Positions 802 through 10,518 of a stretch of 64,000 nucleotides of DNA are shown here, piece after piece. Origin of the DNA: Roseospira marina. GTDB lineage: Bacteria; Pseudomonadota; Alphaproteobacteria; Rhodospirillales; Rhodospirillaceae. The stretch is from positions 310,001-374,000 of the forward strand of contig NZ_JACIGJ010000004.1 in NCBI RefSeq assembly GCF_014197855.1. Reading direction: 5' to 3'. The notes under the pieces were generated by a model. The model worked only from the letters and a program-made list of their open reading frames with translations, was not told the DNA's origin and did not search any database. The position numbers and the translations under genes are program-made. How positions within the stretch are numbered: position 1 is the first letter of the stretch; each line of letters begins with the position of its first letter.

Positions 802-1791
802 TCAAAGCCGTCCGTGAAGGACCGTTGTGTGGTGCGCGTCCGTGTCGACCTCGCCGCTTACGGGCGCGCTTAAAGGAGGTGTCCATTGGGGTGGCGCCGG
901 ATCCCGTCGGGCGTCGACGGTCCCATAGATCGACGCCCGGACGACAATGGACTTCGCCCATTCCGAATGCGTCGCGGGCTCGTACATGAGTTGATCGATC
1001 TGAAACACGGCCGGGGCGTCGTGCGCAAGGACGGCTTCGGCCGCCTCAAGATCACTTCGCTGCACCCGATAGCACGTCTCGATGGTTGCGATCTGACAGG
1101 GGTGTATGGCGGTTTTCCCCACGAGCCCGTACTCAAGGTCGCGCATGACCTCCTGCGTGAGGGTCTCGGAATCGCCGAACTCGTCGAAGACCGGTGCCGT
1201 GAGCGGGAACCCGTAGGGCCGGAAGATCGCGACCAGGTTCGCGATCACGGGCCCCACGGCCGTGTCATAGATCGTCCGGCCGGGCCCGCGTCGAACGCCG
1301 AGAAAATTCAGCAGGTCGTTTCCACCGATGCGGAGGGCCAGGATCCGCTCCTTGAGATCGGGTGCCGACAGCACGTCCCGAAGCGCGCTCATTCCACCGG
1401 GGTCAAAAGCCTCCAGGGTTTCCAAGGTCGGCATCAGGTGAAAGCGCCGGGGCGTCATTGCGGCGCACGCGGACACACTGTCCGCGGTTGCCTTCGGGAG
1501 GACGAACCCATCGATCCGCTCCACCCCGGGCATCGTCAGAATGCGCGAGAGCGTTGCCGTGTCACGCGGGCGTACGAACACGAGCGCGCGGCGATCCGTC
1601 CTGATCTGCGGCAGGCATCGGCGCAGGTTGTCCAGGGCGGCCTCGACCTGGCCATACAGAATGCTGTCTTCCGTGCAAAGGATGACGGACCGCAAACCGG
1701 GGTGCCGGTCGCCATTGGCGATCGAGAGAATATCGGGCCGGGTGGCGGGAATGTACAGACTGGCCCCAAGGCGAAGGTGCGTGTTGGTCAT
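802..1791 (-). CDS. CitE-like C-C bond lyase (TIM barrel) of a Ter-type biosynthetic module
   Basis: The 329-residue protein is of the HpcH/HpaI aldolase / citrate lyase beta type, in the divergent branch called C-C_Bond_Lyase that occurs in tellurite-resistance (Ter) associated loci. Visible marks are the N-terminal LGASLYIPATRPD strand, VFVRPRD, the acidic metal-site segments RIGGNDLL and DEFGD, and the C-terminal GKTAIHPCQI typical of CitE-like enzymes. The chosen ATG at 1791 overlaps the upstream stop codon as ATGA, so translation is probably coupled. It is the last gene of the operon. The substrate is unknown; in this module the lyase is thought to help build or cleave a nucleoside-like metabolite. 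Confidence 0.85.
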   Translation of the reverse strand: MTNTHLRLGASLYIPATRPDILSIANGDRHPGLRSVILCTEDSILYGQVEAALDNLRRCLPQIRTDRRALVFVRPRDTATLSRILTMPGVERIDGFVLPKATADSVSACAAMTPRRFHLMPTLETLEAFDPGGMSALRDVLSAPDLKERILALRIGGNDLLNFLGVRRGPGRTIYDTAVGPVIANLVAIFRPYGFPLTAPVFDEFGDSETLTQEVMRDLEYGLVGKTAIHPCQIATIETCYRVQRSDLEAAEAVLAHDAPAVFQIDQLMYEPATHSEWAKSIVVRASIYGTVDARRDPAPPQWTPPLSAPVSGEVDTDAHHTTVLHGRL

Positions 1792-2888
1792 GCGTCCCCC
1801 AACGTCCGGATGACGGCGCACGCCGAGTAAGGGAGGTCGGCATCGAACTCCACGGCAAGGCCCCGCTCTGCGGCGAGCGAGACCAAATGATCTGTGTCTT
1901 CCGAGGTCGGAGTGCGCACAAAAAGCCGCTCGGGAACCCGTCGCAACAGGGCCCGCGTGGACTCGCCGATGCCGGGCTTGATCCTGTTTCTGTCCCCGAT
2001 CCCGCTGCGGGCGAGCATGGCCTCGACGAAGGCCTGCGACACCGCGGAGGCCCGCGACCGTTCCGTTTGCGTCCAGGCGGCCGGTTCGGCATCGGCCAGA
2101 CAGACACGAACGTCCGCCATCTGTTGATCCACGTACCAGCGGCTCAGGTCGCGCTCCGACAGATGATCCAGAATGACGCAGCCGTGGAAATCCCCCGGCC
2201 CGACGACATCGGCGTTCAGGACCGTTCGGCTGACGAGCCCCGAGATCACCCCGTTCAGGATCGCGGAGGGAATGACATAGTCCTCGTCGCCGGCGGCGAT
2301 GTCCGCCTTTCCCGCCAAGTCGGACAGGACACACAGCGGGGCGTCGACAAGCTCCGGAAGATCGCGGGCAAGGGTCTCGGCGAGTTCGTTGGCAATGGCC
2401 CCCTTGCCCGTCCAGCCATCCACGAAGACCACCGTCGAGGTCGCATGCTGCGCGAGGATCGCCCGCATGGCGATACGATCGATTCCCCGGTCGCGAATGA
2501 TGGAGACCGAGTAGTGCGCCACCGTCCGCCCCAAGGTTTCAAGCGTTCTTTTGAGAAGAACGCCGATGGGTGTGCCCGCCCGGGCCAGGCTGACCAGCAC
2601 GATCTCCTCGCCGCCCCGCGCGGCCAAGGCCTTGGCGAGGCGCGCGATATCCCGGCCCACGCGCCCCCGGTTGGCGTCGAAGGCCTGTTCGAACGCCCGC
2701 ATGTAGGCGGGCGTTGGGGCGCTTTCCGGGGCGAGCATTTCGCTGTAGTGCCGCCGGCCGCTCTGGATCGCCCGTTCCTTTGCCTCGACATCGACGAAGT
2801 CCATGCGCACAGGCTTGAGGAGGAATTTCACGTCCGCCGGGTCATAGCTCCCGCTGACTCCGTGCTCCAGTCCCATCATGCCGATCAT
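1788..2888 (-). CDS. StiP-family protein: PRTase-like domain plus PELOTA-type RNA-binding domain
   Basis: The 366-residue protein belongs to the family annotated as 'cysteine protease StiP', which sequence analysis places among phosphoribosyltransferases. Residues about 20-280 form the PRTase-like part: LVSLARAGTPIGVLL is the first nucleotide-fold loop and VVFVDGWTGKG (about 151-162) corresponds to the PRPP loop. The last about 80 residues (from RVPERLFVRTPTS) match a PELOTA RNA-binding module. The gene overlaps both neighbours by 4 nt. In Ter islands it occurs with the same partners, which supports a role in making or attaching a ribosylated metabolite. The enzymatic reaction is not established. 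Confidence 0.85.
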   Translation of the reverse strand: MIGMMGLEHGVSGSYDPADVKFLLKPVRMDFVDVEAKERAIQSGRRHYSEMLAPESAPTPAYMRAFEQAFDANRGRVGRDIARLAKALAARGGEEIVLVSLARAGTPIGVLLKRTLETLGRTVAHYSVSIIRDRGIDRIAMRAILAQHATSTVVFVDGWTGKGAIANELAETLARDLPELVDAPLCVLSDLAGKADIAAGDEDYVIPSAILNGVISGLVSRTVLNADVVGPGDFHGCVILDHLSERDLSRWYVDQQMADVRVCLADAEPAAWTQTERSRASAVSQAFVEAMLARSGIGDRNRIKPGIGESTRALLRRVPERLFVRTPTSEDTDHLVSLAAERGLAVEFDADLPYSACAVIRTLGDA

Positions 2889-3640
2889 GCCCCCGCAGCC
2901 ATGGGCAGCGGCGTCCGAGCCGACAGCGCGGCCATGATCTGGGAGTCGGACGGCGCCACCGCAAAGTCACACAACCCCATGAACGCCACGTCGGTGAGGC
3001 TGTCGCCCACCCCCACCGTCAGGACCGGCTCCTCGCCGATAAGGGCGGCCTGCACATACGCGACGGCTGCGGCCTTGCCCAGAAACGGGGGCAGCACGGC
3101 CAGATTTGTCGCGTTCAGGTGGATCGTCCAGTCGTCCGGAACGAAAGACGTGATGGCCGTCCCCAACCGCGACATGTCCTCGACATCTCCCGCGTTCAGC
3201 TTGACCGAAATGTAGAGCGGAAGCCCCGCGTCCTGGATGATGCGATAGCGGACGTCCACGCGCTGATCGGCGGCCGCCTCCGCGACACCCTCCAGCAGCC
3301 GTTGCAGGACGGGCGCCGTTCTGTCCGCCGCCTGTGCCATGCGCGCGTGCCACACGGGATCCGGCTGACCGTTGGCCGCCAGGATGACGCCACCGAACGA
3401 GCAGACCGCAAGGCTGTCGAACGGGAGGGTCACCCGCCGAAAGGCGTCGACGTTGCGGCCCGTGACCGGAATCACCGTGGCATCCCTGGCGAGCCACTCA
3501 AAAAAGGCGACCTGGCGCCCGCATCGGAAGGACAGCGGATGGCCATCACGGTCCATAGCGGCCGGGTGGTCGGCCGCCGGCTTTTTCCGATGGGTCTGGA
3601 AAAGGGTGTCGTCCAGATCCACGAAGACGATGCGTCGCAT
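2885..3640 (-). CDS. HAD-superfamily phosphatase of the Ter-type biosynthetic module
   Basis: The 251-residue protein carries all HAD signatures. Motif I is FVDLDDTLFQT with nucleophile Asp8 and Asp10, motif II is IPVTGR, and motif IV is GVGDSLTDVAF at about 208-218. The large cap between them resembles sucrose-phosphate-phosphatase-like (Cof-type) enzymes. The ATG at 3640 follows the upstream stop by one base, so it was preferred to longer in-frame extensions that run into the previous gene. It probably dephosphorylates a sugar- or nucleoside-phosphate intermediate made by the neighbouring PRTases. Confidence 0.85.
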   Translation of the reverse strand: MRRIVFVDLDDTLFQTHRKKPAADHPAAMDRDGHPLSFRCGRQVAFFEWLARDATVIPVTGRNVDAFRRVTLPFDSLAVCSFGGVILAANGQPDPVWHARMAQAADRTAPVLQRLLEGVAEAAADQRVDVRYRIIQDAGLPLYISVKLNAGDVEDMSRLGTAITSFVPDDWTIHLNATNLAVLPPFLGKAAAVAYVQAALIGEEPVLTVGVGDSLTDVAFMGLCDFAVAPSDSQIMAALSARTPLPMAAGA

Positions 3641-3641
3641 A

Positions 3642-4790
3642 TCAGGCCCCGGGCGCGTTGAAGAAAACGGGTTCGGCCCCAAGGGTCGCGAGCAGCCCCG
3701 TCTGGGCGGTCTCCGGCGGGGTTTCGTAGCAGACCAGAACGCGGTCGTACTGTCCGTTCCGAACACCGTAGAGGAAGTTGGGGATGCCATCGTTGTAGGC
3801 ATCCGGGAACTCCAGGATGCCTTGGATCTCTGTGCCTTCCTGGATGGGTGAACGGGTGGTGGCCTGCACCCGGACGTCGGCGCCCATGCCCGCAAGGCGG
3901 CGGGCGAGTTGGAACGGCGGGTAAACGAACTCGCCGGTGCCCAGCACCAGGATCCGCTCACCCCGCCGGGCCCGGATCGCCGCCACATGATCCGGCAGGG
4001 GACGCGGCGTGCGCAGGCCGAGACGGCCCCAATTCACCGGGATGAGCGCATCCTTGACCTCTCCGTTGCCCGTCACATCCGGCATCCTGGGCGCGCGGGC
4101 ATCCGACGCGGCGCTGAAGGAATGGCGTCCCTCAAGCAGGGAGAGAAATACCGTCGGGGCGGGCAGTTCGGCGCGCACCTCTTCCCTTCGCGCGTGGCCC
4201 ATCCAGTCCGTGATGGTAACGCATGCGATCTGCGACAGATGCGGCATGTGCCGACGACAGACGTCGGCGAGGGCAATAAACGTCGAACCGGTCGACGCCT
4301 CGTCATCAACCAGAACCAGGGTCCGGCACGCTGCGAACAGCGCGGCATCGGCGGGTGCGGCCGGCTCATAGATCAGATGACCCGTGGCGTGACTGTGGCT
4401 CTCTTCGAAGCGCGCGAGCACGCGGTGGTCCGCCAGACGGTACCGGGTCGAATGCAGGAAAAGGAGGTCCTGCCGTCCGGCCAGGGTCTGCCAGGCGTCC
4501 TGGATGCCGTGCCCAAGGGCGATGGCGGTCTCGGCCATTCCGATCACCACAACCGGTCCCGGCAGATCGTTCGGCAGTTTGGCGGCCAGCTTTCGGTGGA
4601 TCATCCGCATAACGCGGGGCTGCACCGGCAGGTGCCGTCCGAGGACGCGGCTGACGAAGATGAAGGGGCGCTTAGGGTTCCGGCGGCTCGCAAAACCGCA
4701 CAAGTCATCGAGAGCGAGATCGCTGCGGTCGACATTGACCTGGAGAGTCCCCCCCGCCAAGCAAACGCTGGCTCTGGTCATGGCAGGCAT
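3642..4790 (-). CDS. Phosphoribosyltransferase with C-terminal TRSP domain (first gene of the operon)
   Basis: The 382-residue protein has an N-terminal PRTase fold (PRTase_2 type). VVVIGMAETAIALG forms one phosphate loop and LVLVDDEASTGST (about 157-169) is a textbook PRPP-binding loop. The C-terminal part contains RILVLGTGEFVYPPFQLA and resembles the TRSP domain known only fused to this PRTase type. It opens the four-gene minus-strand operon, whose promoter should lie just above 4790. Expected activity is transfer of ribose-5-phosphate from PRPP onto an unidentified base. No ter gene is visible nearby. Confidence 0.85.
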   Translation of the reverse strand: MPAMTRASVCLAGGTLQVNVDRSDLALDDLCGFASRRNPKRPFIFVSRVLGRHLPVQPRVMRMIHRKLAAKLPNDLPGPVVVIGMAETAIALGHGIQDAWQTLAGRQDLLFLHSTRYRLADHRVLARFEESHSHATGHLIYEPAAPADAALFAACRTLVLVDDEASTGSTFIALADVCRRHMPHLSQIACVTITDWMGHARREEVRAELPAPTVFLSLLEGRHSFSAASDARAPRMPDVTGNGEVKDALIPVNWGRLGLRTPRPLPDHVAAIRARRGERILVLGTGEFVYPPFQLARRLAGMGADVRVQATTRSPIQEGTEIQGILEFPDAYNDGIPNFLYGVRNGQYDRVLVCYETPPETAQTGLLATLGAEPVFFNAPGA

Positions 4791-5928
4791 ACCGTTCGTC
4801 TCGCCCTCTCGACCATCCCTTGGCAGACCGCAAAATCAATGGCCGTCTGGTGGGGTCGGCGGCGTCGGCAGGGGCCGAGCCGCTGTTTGGGACAGATTAA
4901 AACCATCGTGAACGTCATACTCGCAATACAGCCCTTACCGTGCCCTCCGCTCGGACACTCTGTACCCTTGCTCGCGACCATGCCGGAGGCCCCCCCCGGC
5001 TCATCCCGGTCCGTTGAAGCGCCGGGCGCATCGTGCCGACCCGGGGCTTCCGACCGATCTGTGCCCGCGGCGCCTGGGCTTTACCGATGCGGCGTGCGAA
5101 GGCCCTGCCCAACCCATGCCAGCCTCCTTAAAACTAGGCACTCAAACAACCGACACAAACCCGTGACGAGGATCACCGTGCTCTTCCCCTCGCCGTTGTG
5201 CAGAGACGACGTGCGATGACCTTGCCGTGGATGTCGCGACTCACGACACCTCAAAACGGACGATCATCAGAGGCGACCGTTTCTGAGCGGTGGGGAGGAC
5301 CACCGGGGATGGAGTTCATCGGGTGGGACCGTACATATGCCACCATCCGCTTTCACTGCTGCCCTCCTGCTGCTGAATGGCACGTGAGCGCTGAAGCATC
5401 GGATGGAGTTGTATGGCCAGCCTATTATAGAGCCGGATACCGGCGCGCCGCTTGGCCTCACACTGGCAAGCGGCCGGAAGATGGCACAACCCAGCCCTTC
5501 GCGCAAAGAGTTGTCTTATGTGGCCTGAAGTGGCTTCAGCAGGGGGCCCTTGCCGCTCCACACAGGCTTCGGTACCACCGGGGCGCTCGGATTGCGCGAC
5601 TGCTTTCTCAGAGATCCGGACCACGAGGCCTTAGACAGGGCTTAATCTGTCTGTGGCGCCCCTCCCGCGTGGCACGGGGTCACGTCAAACGTGCCACAGG
5701 ACCAAGGGCCATGAAGGGGATCGCAGCCATGGGCCCGTGTGTCGTTTTGGACGTTTCGTTAAACGAGCCGACGATCTGCGTCATGGATGGCGGGACAGGG
5801 ATTGTCGGACGTGGCCGGTGCGGATCGACACGGGAGGCGATGGCGGAAGCCCGCCCTGTTGCATCAGCAGAACAATCCTTGCTTGAATTCCGCTTCGGCC
5901 GACTGGACGAGGTAGTGGGGCGTGATAG
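4791..5928. other. Gene-poor 1.1-kb region with mobile-element debris
   Basis: No intact gene can be supported here. The only recognisable coding remnant is the IS110-type transposase start listed separately. The remaining sequence has stop-rich frames and base composition less GC-biased than neighbouring genes, for example around 5380-5440. The operon promoter for the minus-strand genes should lie in the first 100-200 bases of this stretch; I see no clear -35/-10 pair. Confidence 0.5.
5711..5853 (+). pseudogene. IS110/IS1111-family transposase, N-terminal remnant
   Basis: Translation from the ATG at 5711 gives CVVLDVSLNEPTICVMD followed by GRGRCGSTREAMAEA. This matches the start of IS110-type DEDD transposases, in which the first catalytic Asp sits in a 'GLDVSL(K/H)xxxVCVxD' strand. 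After about 48 residues the similarity stops, and the rest of the about 340-residue enzyme, including the C-terminal serine region, is absent. It is a dead fragment left by insertion and deletion. Confidence 0.6.
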
Positions 5929-6318
5929 ATGGCGGACTTTCTTCCAGACACGATCGTCGCCGTGCTGTCAGTTCTCTTCAGCATGGCGCGCTTCGAAAAC
6001 CAGAGGTGGATCCGCGCGCGGCTCAACGGTTATCGGGGCAGCTGGCAACTTCTCGGGGTCCTCGTCGATATGACGGGCGTGCTGGCGCTGTTGTTCTCGG
6101 TCGCCTTCCTTGTGGCTTATGACTATGGCACCTCGGTGGAGCAGGCCGTCGGCCTCCTGGTGATAACCTTTGTCGGCGGCATGGTCGGTTCGACGGCGCT
6201 GGGCGCGGTGCTTGGCGGGGATCGAGCCATCGTGTGGCTGCTCGCGACGCTCCTCGTGTGGGCGCTGGCGGTCGGTTTGGCTACCCATGTCTCGTGGTTC
6301 GGGCTGGTGCGGCTTTAG
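5929..6318 (+). CDS. Small integral membrane protein, function unknown
   Basis: The 129-residue protein has an amphipathic or short hydrophobic N-terminus, a positively charged stretch (RFENQRWIRARLNGYRG) and three strong hydrophobic segments at about 40-63, 72-95 and 100-122. Codon usage and the clean GC-rich third positions support a real gene. I recognise no family. It stands alone between mobile-element debris and tRNA-Glu. Confidence 0.6.
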   Translation: MADFLPDTIVAVLSVLFSMARFENQRWIRARLNGYRGSWQLLGVLVDMTGVLALLFSVAFLVAYDYGTSVEQAVGLLVITFVGGMVGSTALGAVLGGDRAIVWLLATLLVWALAVGLATHVSWFGLVRL

Positions 6319-6898: not shown

Positions 6899-7882
6899 TC
6901 AGCCCCACAGGGCGCCGGGCGGCGGGCTCATCCAGCCCCGGTCGTAGGCGATGCCGGGCACGCGGTCCTTGCCCAGGAGCACCGGTCCGTCCAGGTCCAC
7001 GAAATCGGCGCCGCTGGCGATCACGGTGGCGGGCGCCATGGCCAGCGATGTGCCCACCATGCAGCCCACCATGACACCCAGGCCGGTCGCGCGTGCCGCC
7101 GCCGTCATCTCCAGCGCCTCGGTCAGGCCCCCGGTCTTGTCGAGTTTCACGTTAACGGCGTCGTACAGGGGGGCGAGCCGTTCGATATCGGTGGTGACAT
7201 GGGCGCTTTCGTCGGCGCACAGCGGCACCGGCGCCTCCAGGCCCACCAGGGCGGCATCCTGGTCCGCGGGCAAGGGCTGTTCCAGCAGGCCAACGCGCAG
7301 GCGGGCCAACGCCGGCAGCGCGGCCCGAAGCTGGTCCAGGGACCAGGCCTCGTTGGCGTCCACGATCAGGTCGGCGGCGGGCGCGCCGTCGCGCACGGCG
7401 GCGATGCGCTCCAGTGCACCCTCAGCCCCCACCTTGATCTTCAGCAGGGGACGATCGGCGAGGGCGGCGGCTTTGTCGCGCATGGCCTCCGGGGCGGCAA
7501 TGGAGAGGGTTTCGGCCGTGACCATGCGCTCGGGCGGGGCTGCGACGCCCGCCAGATCCCAGGCCCGCCGGCCCGTTCGCTTCGACTCCAGGTCCCAGAG
7601 CGCCGCATCGACTGCGTTGCGTGCCGCACCCGCCGGGAGACGGTCGCGAAGATGCTGGCGGGTCAGGCCGCCGGTGAGGGCGTCTTGAATCCCCCGGATG
7701 CTCTCGACCACGCCGTCGGGGGTCTCGCCGTAGCGGGCGTAGGGCACGCTCTCGCCGCGCCCCCAGACCGAGCCCTCGGTGAGCGTGACCACGACCACGA
7801 CCGCTTCCGTGCGGGTGCCGCGCGAAATGGTGAAGCCGCCAGCGATCGGCCAGCGCTCGATGTCGACGCGAACCTCAGGCAT
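6899..7882 (-). CDS. dgcA: N-acetyl-D-glutamate racemase DgcA (enolase-superfamily epimerase)
   Basis: The 327-residue protein is of the muconate-lactonizing / dipeptide-epimerase group. It has the catalytic KxK in LLKIKVGAEG (about residue 147), metal ligands in IVDANEAW, the second catalytic Lys in NVKLDKTGG and the C-terminal GCMVGTSLAMAP loop. On fold alone it would be called an L-Ala-D/L-Glu epimerase. The immediately upstream, 8-nt overlapping DgcN gene instead indicates the D-glutamate pathway, where DgcA converts N-acetyl-D-Glu to N-acetyl-L-Glu. ATG 7882 was chosen because residues upstream of it are only the other frame of dgcN. Confidence 0.85.
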   Translation of the reverse strand: MPEVRVDIERWPIAGGFTISRGTRTEAVVVVVTLTEGSVWGRGESVPYARYGETPDGVVESIRGIQDALTGGLTRQHLRDRLPAGAARNAVDAALWDLESKRTGRRAWDLAGVAAPPERMVTAETLSIAAPEAMRDKAAALADRPLLKIKVGAEGALERIAAVRDGAPAADLIVDANEAWSLDQLRAALPALARLRVGLLEQPLPADQDAALVGLEAPVPLCADESAHVTTDIERLAPLYDAVNVKLDKTGGLTEALEMTAAARATGLGVMVGCMVGTSLAMAPATVIASGADFVDLDGPVLLGKDRVPGIAYDRGWMSPPPGALWG

Positions 7883-8882
7883 CGGCGAGCAACCGATCCA
7901 CGAGCGGCTCCACGCCCGTGCGCACCGGATCCACGACCGGCAGGCCGAGGCGCTCGCTGGCGTTGTGCAGTTCGCGTCGGGCGGCGTCGTCGTCCAGCGC
8001 CGAGGTGTTGAAGCAGCCACCGATGAACCGGGCGTCCGGGCACACCAGCCGGGCGCATTGCAGGTTCAGCGCCATGCACTCTTCCAGGTCGGGTAGGGAA
8101 TAGCCTGGCAGGCCGCGCATGTGGGGACGGCCGGGCTCGTGGCACAGCACGAGGTATTGGGGTTGCGCGCCGTGCAGCAGACCCAGGGAGACGCCGGCGT
8201 AGGAGGCGTGGAACAAGCTGCCCTGGCCTTCGACCAGATCGTAGTGGTCGGGGTCGTTGCCGGGGCAAAGCACTTCGGTCGCGCCGGAGATGAAGTCCGC
8301 CACCACCGCGTCGACGCTCACCCCGCCACCGGCGATCAGGATGCCCGTCTGGCCCGTGGCGCGGAAATCGGCCTTGCAGCCGCGCGCCTTCAGCGCGTGC
8401 TCCATGGCGAGCATGGCGTACATCTTGCCGACCGAGCAGTCGGTTCCGACCGCCAGCACGCGCTTGCCCGGGCGGGGCACGCCGTGGGCGACCGGGAAGG
8501 TGTCCTTCGGATGACGGACGTCGTGTAGCACGCGGCCGTGCTCCTGCGCGGCGTCCATCAGCTCCGGAATGTCGGCCAGTCGGTTGTGCAGGCCCGCCGC
8601 GATGTCGAGCCCGGCGGCCAGCGCGTCCCGGAACACCGCTCGCCAGCTTTCCCCGATGATGCCACCCCGGTTGGCCACGCCCACGACCAGGGTGGCGGCG
8701 CCGCGTGCGGCCGCCTCCTCCACGGTCATTTCGGGCAGGCCGAGGTCCGTTTTGCAGCCCGGCAGGCTCAATTGGCCCACGCAGGCGTTCGGACGCCAAT
8801 ACTGGATGCCGCGCGCGGTCTTGGCGGCGAGGTGGTCGGCGGCATCGCCGAGAAACAGGAGATAGGGCTGGCTGAGATTCAT
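7875..8882 (-). CDS. dgcN: DUF1611-family N-acetyltransferase DgcN
   Basis: The 335-residue protein is of the DUF1611 family, with a P-loop-like VLAVGTDCSVGKMYAMLAM (about 140-160), GQTGILIAGGG and HYDLVEGQGSL, all characteristic of this family. In alphaproteobacteria this protein acetylates D-glutamate, feeding DgcA. The preferred start is MNLSQPYLLF at 8882; an in-frame ATG 32 codons upstream exists but lies in the intergenic region divergent to matB. The LysR/RpiR-type regulator often found with these genes is not present. Confidence 0.85.
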   Translation of the reverse strand: MNLSQPYLLFLGDAADHLAAKTARGIQYWRPNACVGQLSLPGCKTDLGLPEMTVEEAAARGAATLVVGVANRGGIIGESWRAVFRDALAAGLDIAAGLHNRLADIPELMDAAQEHGRVLHDVRHPKDTFPVAHGVPRPGKRVLAVGTDCSVGKMYAMLAMEHALKARGCKADFRATGQTGILIAGGGVSVDAVVADFISGATEVLCPGNDPDHYDLVEGQGSLFHASYAGVSLGLLHGAQPQYLVLCHEPGRPHMRGLPGYSLPDLEECMALNLQCARLVCPDARFIGGCFNTSALDDDAARRELHNASERLGLPVVDPVRTGVEPLVDRLLADA

Positions 8883-9000
8883 GGACGGGAGTCCCCTCGC
8901 TACGACGTGGGTGCCGGACACCGTAGGCCCGCTTTTGCCTCGGGGAAAGGGTGTGTGTATAAGGCGTCGTTCCGTCACGCTGTTCCGAGAGGTTGAAGCG

Positions 9001-10518
9001 ATGTCCGAGTCCTTGTACGCCCTGATGGAGTCCCGGATTCCGGGTGATCGCAGCAGGGTTCTGCTGGAAACCGGCGACGGCGGCTCCTACAGCTATGCGC
9101 AGGCGGAGACGGCCGCGATCCGCATGGCCCGGGCGCTCGCGGACCGGGGCGTGGCGAAGGGCGATCGTGTCGCCGTGCAGGTCGATAAGTCACCCGAGGC
9201 GCTGTTCCTGTATCTGGCGTGCCTGCGGGCGGGATTCGTGTTCCTGCCGATGAACACGGCCTATCGCCCGGACGAGGTCGATTATCTGGTGGGTAACGCG
9301 GAACCGTCCGTGATCGTCTGCCGGCCGGCGGATGTGGCGATCATGGAGGGCATCGCGGCCAAACACGACGGGCCGCTGGTGCTGACGCTGGATACGGACG
9401 GAACCGGAACGCTGGCGGAGGCGGCGGAGGAGGCGCCGGCCGACTTCCCCATGGTCGAGTGCGCCGCCGACGATCTGGCCGCGATGCTGTACACCAGCGG
9501 CACGACCGGCAAGCCGAAGGGCGCCATGCTCACGCACGGCAATCTGGCGGCCAACGGCTTGGATCTGGTCGAATCCTGGCGTTTTACGGCGGACGATGTG
9601 CTGTTGCATGCGCTGCCGATCTTCCATGCGCACGGCCTCTTCGTGGCCTGCCACTGCGTGCTGCTGGCCGGCGCGTCCATGATCTGGCTGCCCGGCTTCG
9701 ATCGGGCGGAGGTGCTGCGGCACCTGCCGCGCGCGACCGCCTTCATGGGCGTGCCGACGTTCTATGTGCGCCTGCTGGCGGGCGAGGATTTCAATCGCGA
9801 GGCCTGCGCTGCCATGCGGCTGTTCACGGCCGGCTCCGCGCCGCTGCTGGCGGAAACGCACGAGGCGTTCAGCGCCCGCACCGGCCACGCCATCCTGGAG
9901 CGTTACGGCATGACCGAGACCGGCATGCTGACCGGGAACCCCTACGACGGGGAGCGGCGGCCGGGTTCGGTCGGGTTCCCGTTCCCGCAGGTCGAGGTCC
10001 GCGTGGCCGACGAGCAGGACCAACCTGTGGTCACCGACGCAATCGGTGACATCCAGGTGCGCGGGCCGAACGTCATGAAGGGCTATTGGCGCCTGCCCGA
10101 AAAAACGGCCGAGGACTTCACGGCCGATGGCTGGTTCCGCACCGGCGATGTGGGGCGGATCGACGAGCGAGGCTATCTGTTCATCGTTGGGCGGGCCAAG
10201 GATCTGGTGATCACCGGCGGCTACAACGTCTATCCGAAAGAGGTCGAATCGGTGATCGACGACCTGCCCGGGGTGGTCGAGAGCGCGGTGATCGGGGTGC
10301 GGCACCCGGACTTCGGCGAGGGCGTGCTGGCCGTGGTCGTGCCGGCGGCGGAGGATGCTCCCGATGAGGCGGCCATTATGGCCCACTGCAAGGAGCATCT
10401 CGCGAACTACAAGACGCCGAAGCGCGTGTTCTTCGTCGAGGAGCTGCCGCGCAACACCATGGGCAAGGTCCAGAAAGCCCAGTTGCGCGAACAGCACGCC
10501 GATCTGTTCAAGGGGTAG
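9001..10518 (+). CDS. matB: Malonate--CoA ligase (malonyl-CoA synthetase)
   Basis: The 505-residue protein is an acyl-CoA synthetase of the ANL superfamily. The P-loop is YTSGTTGKPKGAM (about 164-176), with ERYGMTETGML (A5), the hinge GRAKDLVITGGYNVYPKEVE and the catalytic Lys in NTMGKVQK (about 489). Length and the short linkers match MatB rather than general AMP ligases. It activates malonate to malonyl-CoA with ATP. The gene is divergent from dgcN and followed by an aldehyde dehydrogenase and a TRAP transporter, which could import malonate or another dicarboxylate. ATG 9001 is preceded by GAGAGG. Confidence 0.85.
   Translation: MSESLYALMESRIPGDRSRVLLETGDGGSYSYAQAETAAIRMARALADRGVAKGDRVAVQVDKSPEALFLYLACLRAGFVFLPMNTAYRPDEVDYLVGNAEPSVIVCRPADVAIMEGIAAKHDGPLVLTLDTDGTGTLAEAAEEAPADFPMVECAADDLAAMLYTSGTTGKPKGAMLTHGNLAANGLDLVESWRFTADDVLLHALPIFHAHGLFVACHCVLLAGASMIWLPGFDRAEVLRHLPRATAFMGVPTFYVRLLAGEDFNREACAAMRLFTAGSAPLLAETHEAFSARTGHAILERYGMTETGMLTGNPYDGERRPGSVGFPFPQVEVRVADEQDQPVVTDAIGDIQVRGPNVMKGYWRLPEKTAEDFTADGWFRTGDVGRIDERGYLFIVGRAKDLVITGGYNVYPKEVESVIDDLPGVVESAVIGVRHPDFGEGVLAVVVPAAEDAPDEAAIMAHCKEHLANYKTPKRVFFVEELPRNTMGKVQKAQLREQHADLFKG

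Follow-up and report, generated by a model that had tools for sequence, protein, structure and literature searches.

Four minus-strand genes of Roseospira marina, at positions 802 to 4790 of the stretch analysed here, almost certainly belong to a Ter (tellurite/stress) locus cut by the edge of this stretch, and form its biosynthetic arm. The stretch, hereafter the window, comprises 64,000 nucleotides and corresponds to positions 310001-374000 of contig C4 (NZ_JACIGJ010000004.1), in a genome of 57 contigs that is 98.6% complete. A sequence-only reading of the window had described the four genes as the biosynthetic arm of Ter systems in a standalone version, without ter genes. The first part holds, because the Pfam families and the synteny with annotated Ter loci both point to it. 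The second part was mistaken: the ter operon lies directly to the left of the window, and its apparent absence is therefore an artefact of the edge. The locus is a further example of a known system and, in itself, ordinary.

A search of the genome for TerD gave six matches, all on the minus strand of C4:303213-309837. The closest one (C4:309277-309837) lies 164 bases left of window base 1, with the remaining ter operon beyond, and TerC is encoded at C4:304555-305223. Going leftward from the cassette, Pfam searches of the long frames identified TerD, again TerD, a TerD protein of 457 amino acids, a double-TerD (TerA-like) protein of 387 amino acids, TerB and TerC and, beyond TerC, HAD, TerD, vWA, vWA, vWA with TerY_C, and PP2C. 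A kinase gene, 83% identical to the kinase of the Azospirillum Ter locus discussed below, was added by tblastn. The ter genes and the cassette share one strand, and TerD, TerB and TerC are all linked to the cassette, with their genes outside the window. The leftward extension that had been proposed as a check on the earlier claim thus recovered TerD, TerB, TerC and vWA genes, but no ATP-grasp gene beside the cassette. Cassettes of a ter-less type do exist, in the genome G519 and on Rhizobium plasmids. For the locus studied here, the idea of a standalone ter-less operon finds no support, and with TerD, TerB and TerC just outside the window its probability is practically nil; extending the contig leftward rules it out, barring misassembly.

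Within the cassette, the families had been correctly named and the gene layout is as had been claimed. The first gene (3642-4790) encodes a protein of 382 amino acids in which a phosphoribosyltransferase (PRTase) domain, PRTase_2 (PF15609, E 6.7e-64), is fused to TRSP (PF12500, E 8.5e-24). It is followed by a HAD-IIB-type phosphatase of 251 amino acids (2885-3640), by a fusion of StiP (PF11202, E 1.1e-98) and PELOTA_1 (PF15608, E 1.1e-27) of 366 amino acids (1788-2888), and by a C-C bond lyase of the CitE/HpcH-HpaI type of 329 amino acids (802-1791; C-C_Bond_Lyase, PF15617, E 1.9e-87). Both fusions, a HAD protein with intact motifs between them and the PF15617 lyase are therefore all present. 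The first junction is a gap of one nucleotide (PRTase stop at 3644-3642, HAD ATG at 3640-3638), while the HAD/StiP and StiP/lyase junctions are ATGA overlaps, and a reading-frame check of the minus strand found all four frames open throughout, with zero internal stops. At least three of the four proteins were expected to fall into these families in a search with hidden Markov models, and three do so well above the Pfam cut-off; the HAD protein is marginal, with 20.5 bits to S6PP against a cut-off of 20.3. The lyase also gives a match to PDB 3qll, 'Citrate lyase' (E 3e-14), and scores far under the cut-off of NCBIfam RipC_Ccl.

A close comparison is offered by Magnetospirillum molischianum DSM 120. 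Its four cassette genes encode proteins with 67-77% identity; after them, on the same strand, come terD, terD, terA, terB, terC, terD, vWA, vWA and terY, the sequence compared ending inside terY. It differs in having one terA-type hit (44%) where R. marina has the two TerD-domain proteins of 457 and 387 amino acids, and its match to the HAD of the ter operon spans 31 residues only. Plasmid unnamed1 of Azospirillum ramasamyi (NZ_CP029830.1) carries the same four genes in the same order, with 55-69% protein identity, together with genes for TerD, TerB, TerC, two vWA proteins, TerY, PP2C and the kinase. In contrast to the locus studied here, the ter block is located 5' to its cassette, a short ATP-grasp protein is encoded, and insertion sequence (IS) elements flank the stretch on both sides. 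The Ter locus of the enterobacterial IncHI2 plasmid pHum3b has the order PRTase, HAD, StiP, HpcH/HpaI beside terZABCDE, with 34-48% identity, but the cassette there points away from the ter operon, on the other strand, TerW is present, and the PRTase gene is preceded by a full ATP-grasp gene. In the Acinetobacter jumbo phage ME3, PRTase, HAD and StiP/PELOTA occur with TerD; identities are 25-37%, no lyase hit was obtained, and the genes are phage-borne.

The linkage of cassette and ter genes was followed through the class and the phylum. Among 289 genomes of the class, 4 score over the cut-off of PF15609, and 29 match if E-values up to 0.001 are admitted; for StiP, the corresponding numbers among 398 genomes of the phylum are 12 and 16. 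Merged, the sets over the cut-off comprise 14 genomes, including that of the window and two of one genus (G356 and G377). TerD is encoded on the same contig within 1.6 kb of the cassette in 11 of the 14. In two more, G290 and G387, the contigs that carry the cassette are short (5.4 and 10.3 kb), and TerD is matched on a different contig; the rhizobium-like G519 has no TerD match anywhere in its genome. Furthermore, 29 loci were mapped or read, every one of them picked for matching a cassette protein (L002, L040-L053, L062, L084-L096). They are not fully independent: L086 duplicates the record of L045, and the PRTase_2 proteins of L089 and L094 are identical. The order PRTase, HAD, StiP, lyase is complete in 18 of the 29 (L086, the copy of L045, would be the 19th), and in 17 of these 18 ter genes occur within the sequence covered, the exception, L087, being a contig of 5.4 kb. 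With the PRTase as tblastn query, 2,555 of 72,556 plasmid records were matched, mostly enterobacterial, and 4 of 50,697 phage records, two of which are the same phage.

A ter-less form of the cassette exists in rhizobia, though not at the locus studied here. Plasmid p42d of Rhizobium etli (L094) encodes PRTase_2/TRSP, StiP/PELOTA and HAD, but in the order PRTase, StiP, HAD, and no ter, lyase or ATP-grasp gene is found within the 25 kb examined. The PRTase_2 protein of G519 is identical to that of p42d. On these bean-rhizobium plasmids (L089, L094) a distance of about 5 kb separates the cassette from type III secretion genes, and 33 plasmid records carry it at 99% identity or more. PRTase/StiP cassettes were also noted on plasmids of Mesorhizobium loti and Rhizobium sp. 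T1473 (L095, L096), where the sparse annotation lists no ter genes; they adjoin IS elements or group II introns, and L096 starts at the first base of its record, so that its upstream side is not covered. The bean-rhizobium plasmids would allow the cassette to be studied separately from ter genes.

The enzymology of the cassette can be approached through the folds and motifs of its proteins. The PRTase_2 protein has a loop of the type that binds phosphoribosyl pyrophosphate (PRPP), LVLVDDEASTGST, and such a loop is present in all ten of the PRTase_2 proteins checked, which are a subset. Its AlphaFold model (predicted local distance difference test, pLDDT, 72.4) resembles adenine and xanthine phosphoribosyltransferases, with Foldseek E-values down to 3e-6. 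No solved structure for StiP or PRTase_2 was found by sequence at E up to 0.1. For StiP, an AlphaFold model built from 8 sequences reaches a Foldseek probability of 1.00 solely with phosphoribosyltransferase chains (HGPRT, PyrR), which make up 13 among the 50 rows listed; these matches extend over 122-143 columns, with template-modelling (TM) scores of 0.38-0.48 by target length. Its loop, FVD-G/S-W-T/C-G/A-KG in general and VDGWTGKG at this locus, is similar to a PRPP loop but lacks the second acidic residue. StiP may, on this model, be phosphoribosyltransferase-like, and it is probably not a protease. The PRTase view of StiP is probably already that of Anantharaman and co-workers, since PMC5571608 credits them with linking a Ter-operon PRTase to a PELOTA domain. 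That StiP might be a cysteine protease acting on a Ter protein is what its name, both in PF11202 and in annotated genes, would imply, and one alignment column does have Cys in 24 of 27 different StiP proteins. However, this is the top cysteine column, none of the 45 invariant positions of these 27 proteins is a cysteine, and the model matches HGPRT and PyrR folds, which makes a protease highly improbable.

The HAD protein has intact DxD, T, K and GDSxxD motifs, and the catalytic residues are invariant in all 15 aligned cassette HADs, this one included. Among NCBIfam models it comes near the HAD-IIB (HAD-SF-IIB) and sucrose-phosphatase groups, under the cut-off. A profile of 8 cassette HADs matches PDB entries 6d3v, 6d3w and 6cj0, deposited as 'Trehalose phosphatase', with E 9e-63, the next PDB match being at 0.061; the HAD of an Escherichia coli plasmid Ter locus matches them too (E 7e-43). 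The sequence of 6d3v has a counterpart, with 99.6% identity, in a gene on the Pseudomonas aeruginosa plasmid CP109686.1 (L062). This gene is flanked by those for PRTase and StiP, in a Ter locus that also has ATP-grasp, lyase, TerD, TerB and TerC. Two IS1182 transposase genes were noted at the same locus. The Pseudomonas Ter-locus HAD has exactly two cysteines, 85 and 231 (87 and 233 in PDB chain numbering). PMC6838324 describes the inhibition, with an inhibition constant Ki of 2.1 uM, of an 'extra-chromosomal' trehalose-6-phosphate phosphatase (TPP) of P. aeruginosa with specific cysteines Cys85 and Cys231, and states that trehalose-6-phosphate is strictly required in TPP assays. Because the cysteine numbers agree, we infer that the Pseudomonas Ter-locus HAD is this enzyme. 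The HAD studied here is 38% identical to the Pseudomonas Ter-locus HAD over 245 residues. Cross et al. 2018 reportedly found that both P. aeruginosa enzymes hydrolyse trehalose-6-phosphate in a magnesium-dependent manner. By analogy with the activity reported for this relative, on the phosphate of a disaccharide, the substrate of the cassette HAD may be a sugar phosphate. Among the papers listed by a search limited to an open library, none was seen to connect the HAD of the Ter cassette with the trehalose phosphatase.

It could be imagined from these matches that the cassette HAD is itself a trehalose-6-phosphate phosphatase through which the cassette feeds trehalose metabolism. The deposited structures, the handling of the fitting Pseudomonas enzyme as a TPP in PMC6838324, an OtsA-type synthase in the genome and, for the Ter HAD of the E. 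coli plasmid, a weak match to Trehalose_PPase (E 0.0068; 16 bits, with the cut-off at 27) are in line with this. Yet a separate OtsB is encoded in the genome, at 2.9 kb from OtsA, and therefore trehalose synthesis need not depend on the cassette HAD. The cassette HAD, moreover, has no meaningful BLAST match to this OtsB (best E 0.077) and no match to the OtsB family model PF02358 at E up to 5, and it accompanies PRTase and StiP genes in the loci mapped. That the HAD is simply such a phosphatase, feeding trehalose metabolism, is therefore very unlikely.

The reading that we prefer is a Ter biosynthetic arm that makes a ribosylated small molecule. The PRTase_2 enzyme would transfer a 5-phosphoribosyl group from PRPP onto an acceptor, and the HAD would then strip the 5-phosphate. 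PRTase-phosphatase pairs act likewise in some aminoglycoside pathways. StiP, with its PRTase-like domain and its PELOTA/L7Ae-like domain, would make or sense a second ribosyl linkage or, alternatively, deliver the product to a partner, either RNA or protein. The CitE-like lyase may use C-C bond chemistry to prepare or trim the acceptor. Once finished, the molecule would be a signal to, or a ligand of, the adjacent part made up of TerD/TerB/TerC and vWA/TerY/PP2C/kinase. All of these reaction steps, and the signalling role, are proposed from families, intact motifs, synteny and PRTase-like models. The ribosylation mechanism as such, phosphoribose being added by the PRTase and phosphate removed by the HAD, is tentative and falls somewhat short of an even chance; put forward as one statement with the Ter-locus identity, ribosylation and signalling are evenly poised between right and wrong. 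Anantharaman et al. 2012 predicted that the Ter arm makes a nucleoside-like metabolite, as relayed in PMC7824862 and PMC8115787; the signalling view is that of PMC7824862, which proposes that the arm signals threat to TerB/TerD sensors. A terC mutant shows weaker phage resistance, according to PMC12054061. Models of anti-phage systems in PADLOC-DB, to which the four cassette proteins but no ter genes were submitted, gave no match with E up to 0.1.

Several observations weigh against this scheme. Confidence in the StiP model is modest (mean pLDDT 65.5, predicted TM score 0.71), its four lowest-E Foldseek rows are unrelated folds with TM 0.21-0.27, and a profile comparison of StiP with PRTase_2 (hhalign) was non-significant (probability 0.8%, E 0.069). 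The gene set is not fixed: a lyase hit is absent in L041, L053, L084, L085 and L089, and L088 has PRTase_2, StiP and lyase without a HAD hit. L047 is a truncated locus, and the annotation of L094-L096 shows no lyase. An ATP-grasp gene beside the cassette was not found by tblastn of C4:288000-326000. Finally, terZ-F alone suffices for tellurite resistance and the arm is not needed, as stated in PMC8115787; therefore the arm must have another purpose or else tune resistance.

Since the lyase and the ATP-grasp give no hit in several loci, they would be accessory. In enterobacterial and Pseudomonas Ter loci an ATP-grasp gene precedes the PRTase gene; within the sequence covered, L043 (M. molischianum), L044 and L048 have none either. 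Throughout the R. marina genome, PF15632 (ATPgrasp_Ter) gives two partial matches (34.4 and 32.8 bits, cut-off 29.1), in frames of 584 and 1138 amino acids, the latter on C4 about 32 kb away. These were not counted as a Ter ATP-grasp, because the same model also matches in 13 of 14 control genomes. Short ATP-grasp proteins of about 170 amino acids, antisense to the ter genes, were observed in L045 (6095-6601), L046 (14192-14698) and L050 (903-1415), and that of L050 matches ATPgrasp_Ter.

Two variants of the product may be considered. In one, the arm makes a ribosylated sugar-like (disaccharide-type) signal and not a classical nucleoside, the two PRTase domains building a phosphoribosyl-sugar that the HAD finishes, its Pseudomonas relative being the reported trehalose-6-phosphate phosphatase. 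We regard this as unlikely; if it were true, 6cj0 and 6d3v would already show a Ter-pathway enzyme under another name. The other, equally unlikely, is the modification of RNA, in which the PELOTA/L7Ae-like domain would dock on structured RNA, the PRTase domains add phosphoribose and the HAD trim the phosphate. A parallel is drawn from a yeast enzyme that ribosylates initiator tRNA. The fusion of StiP with PELOTA_1, found here, in phage ME3 and in R. etli, is in accordance with such a role, and PMC5571608 has a PELOTA-type domain modelled on L7Ae bound to kink-turn RNA. In the same modelling, however, the PELOTA_1 domain forms fewer RNA hydrogen bonds than L7Ae. Furthermore, the activity reported for a HAD from a Ter locus is on a small sugar phosphate (PMC6838324). 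Useful by-products of the analysis, each a lead towards what the Ter arm makes, are the solved HAD of a Ter locus that is filed as a trehalose phosphatase, the evidence for a StiP that is PRTase-like and no protease, and the ter-less rhizobial form.

The spacer between the lyase gene and the first terD (1-801; terD itself lies beyond the window edge) contains two copies of a palindromic repeat. The palindrome at 617-633 and 681-697 has 6 matches in the window against 0.39 expected, which is more than chance. In its 37-nt form (up to 3 mismatches), the copies extend over 608-644 and 672-708, and a third copy near the locus lies inside the ter operon (C4:301706-301742). The repeat was considered as a Ter-specific operator and rejected, because it is dispersed at 26 places in this genome and the search of 20 genomes found it in 5, which belong to a single genus (5 of the 6 searched from this genus, 0 of 14 others). 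Scans were also made for promoters (1 found, 0.7 expected) and terminator-like sites (8 found, 4.0 expected, standard deviation 2.1), neither result being used. The sequence-only reading had placed mobile-element debris on the flanks. This was neither confirmed nor excluded: the handful of flank open reading frames (ORFs) submitted to Pfam gave no match, and an insertion-sequence library was not searched. The ORF at 5198-6073 has by eye a slight likeness to the start of an IS110 transposase; Pfam gave nothing at E up to 1, and the identity is not claimed. Further to the right, at 6899-10518, candidates for an enolase-superfamily enzyme, a DUF1611-like protein and an acyl-CoA synthetase were noted by eye only.

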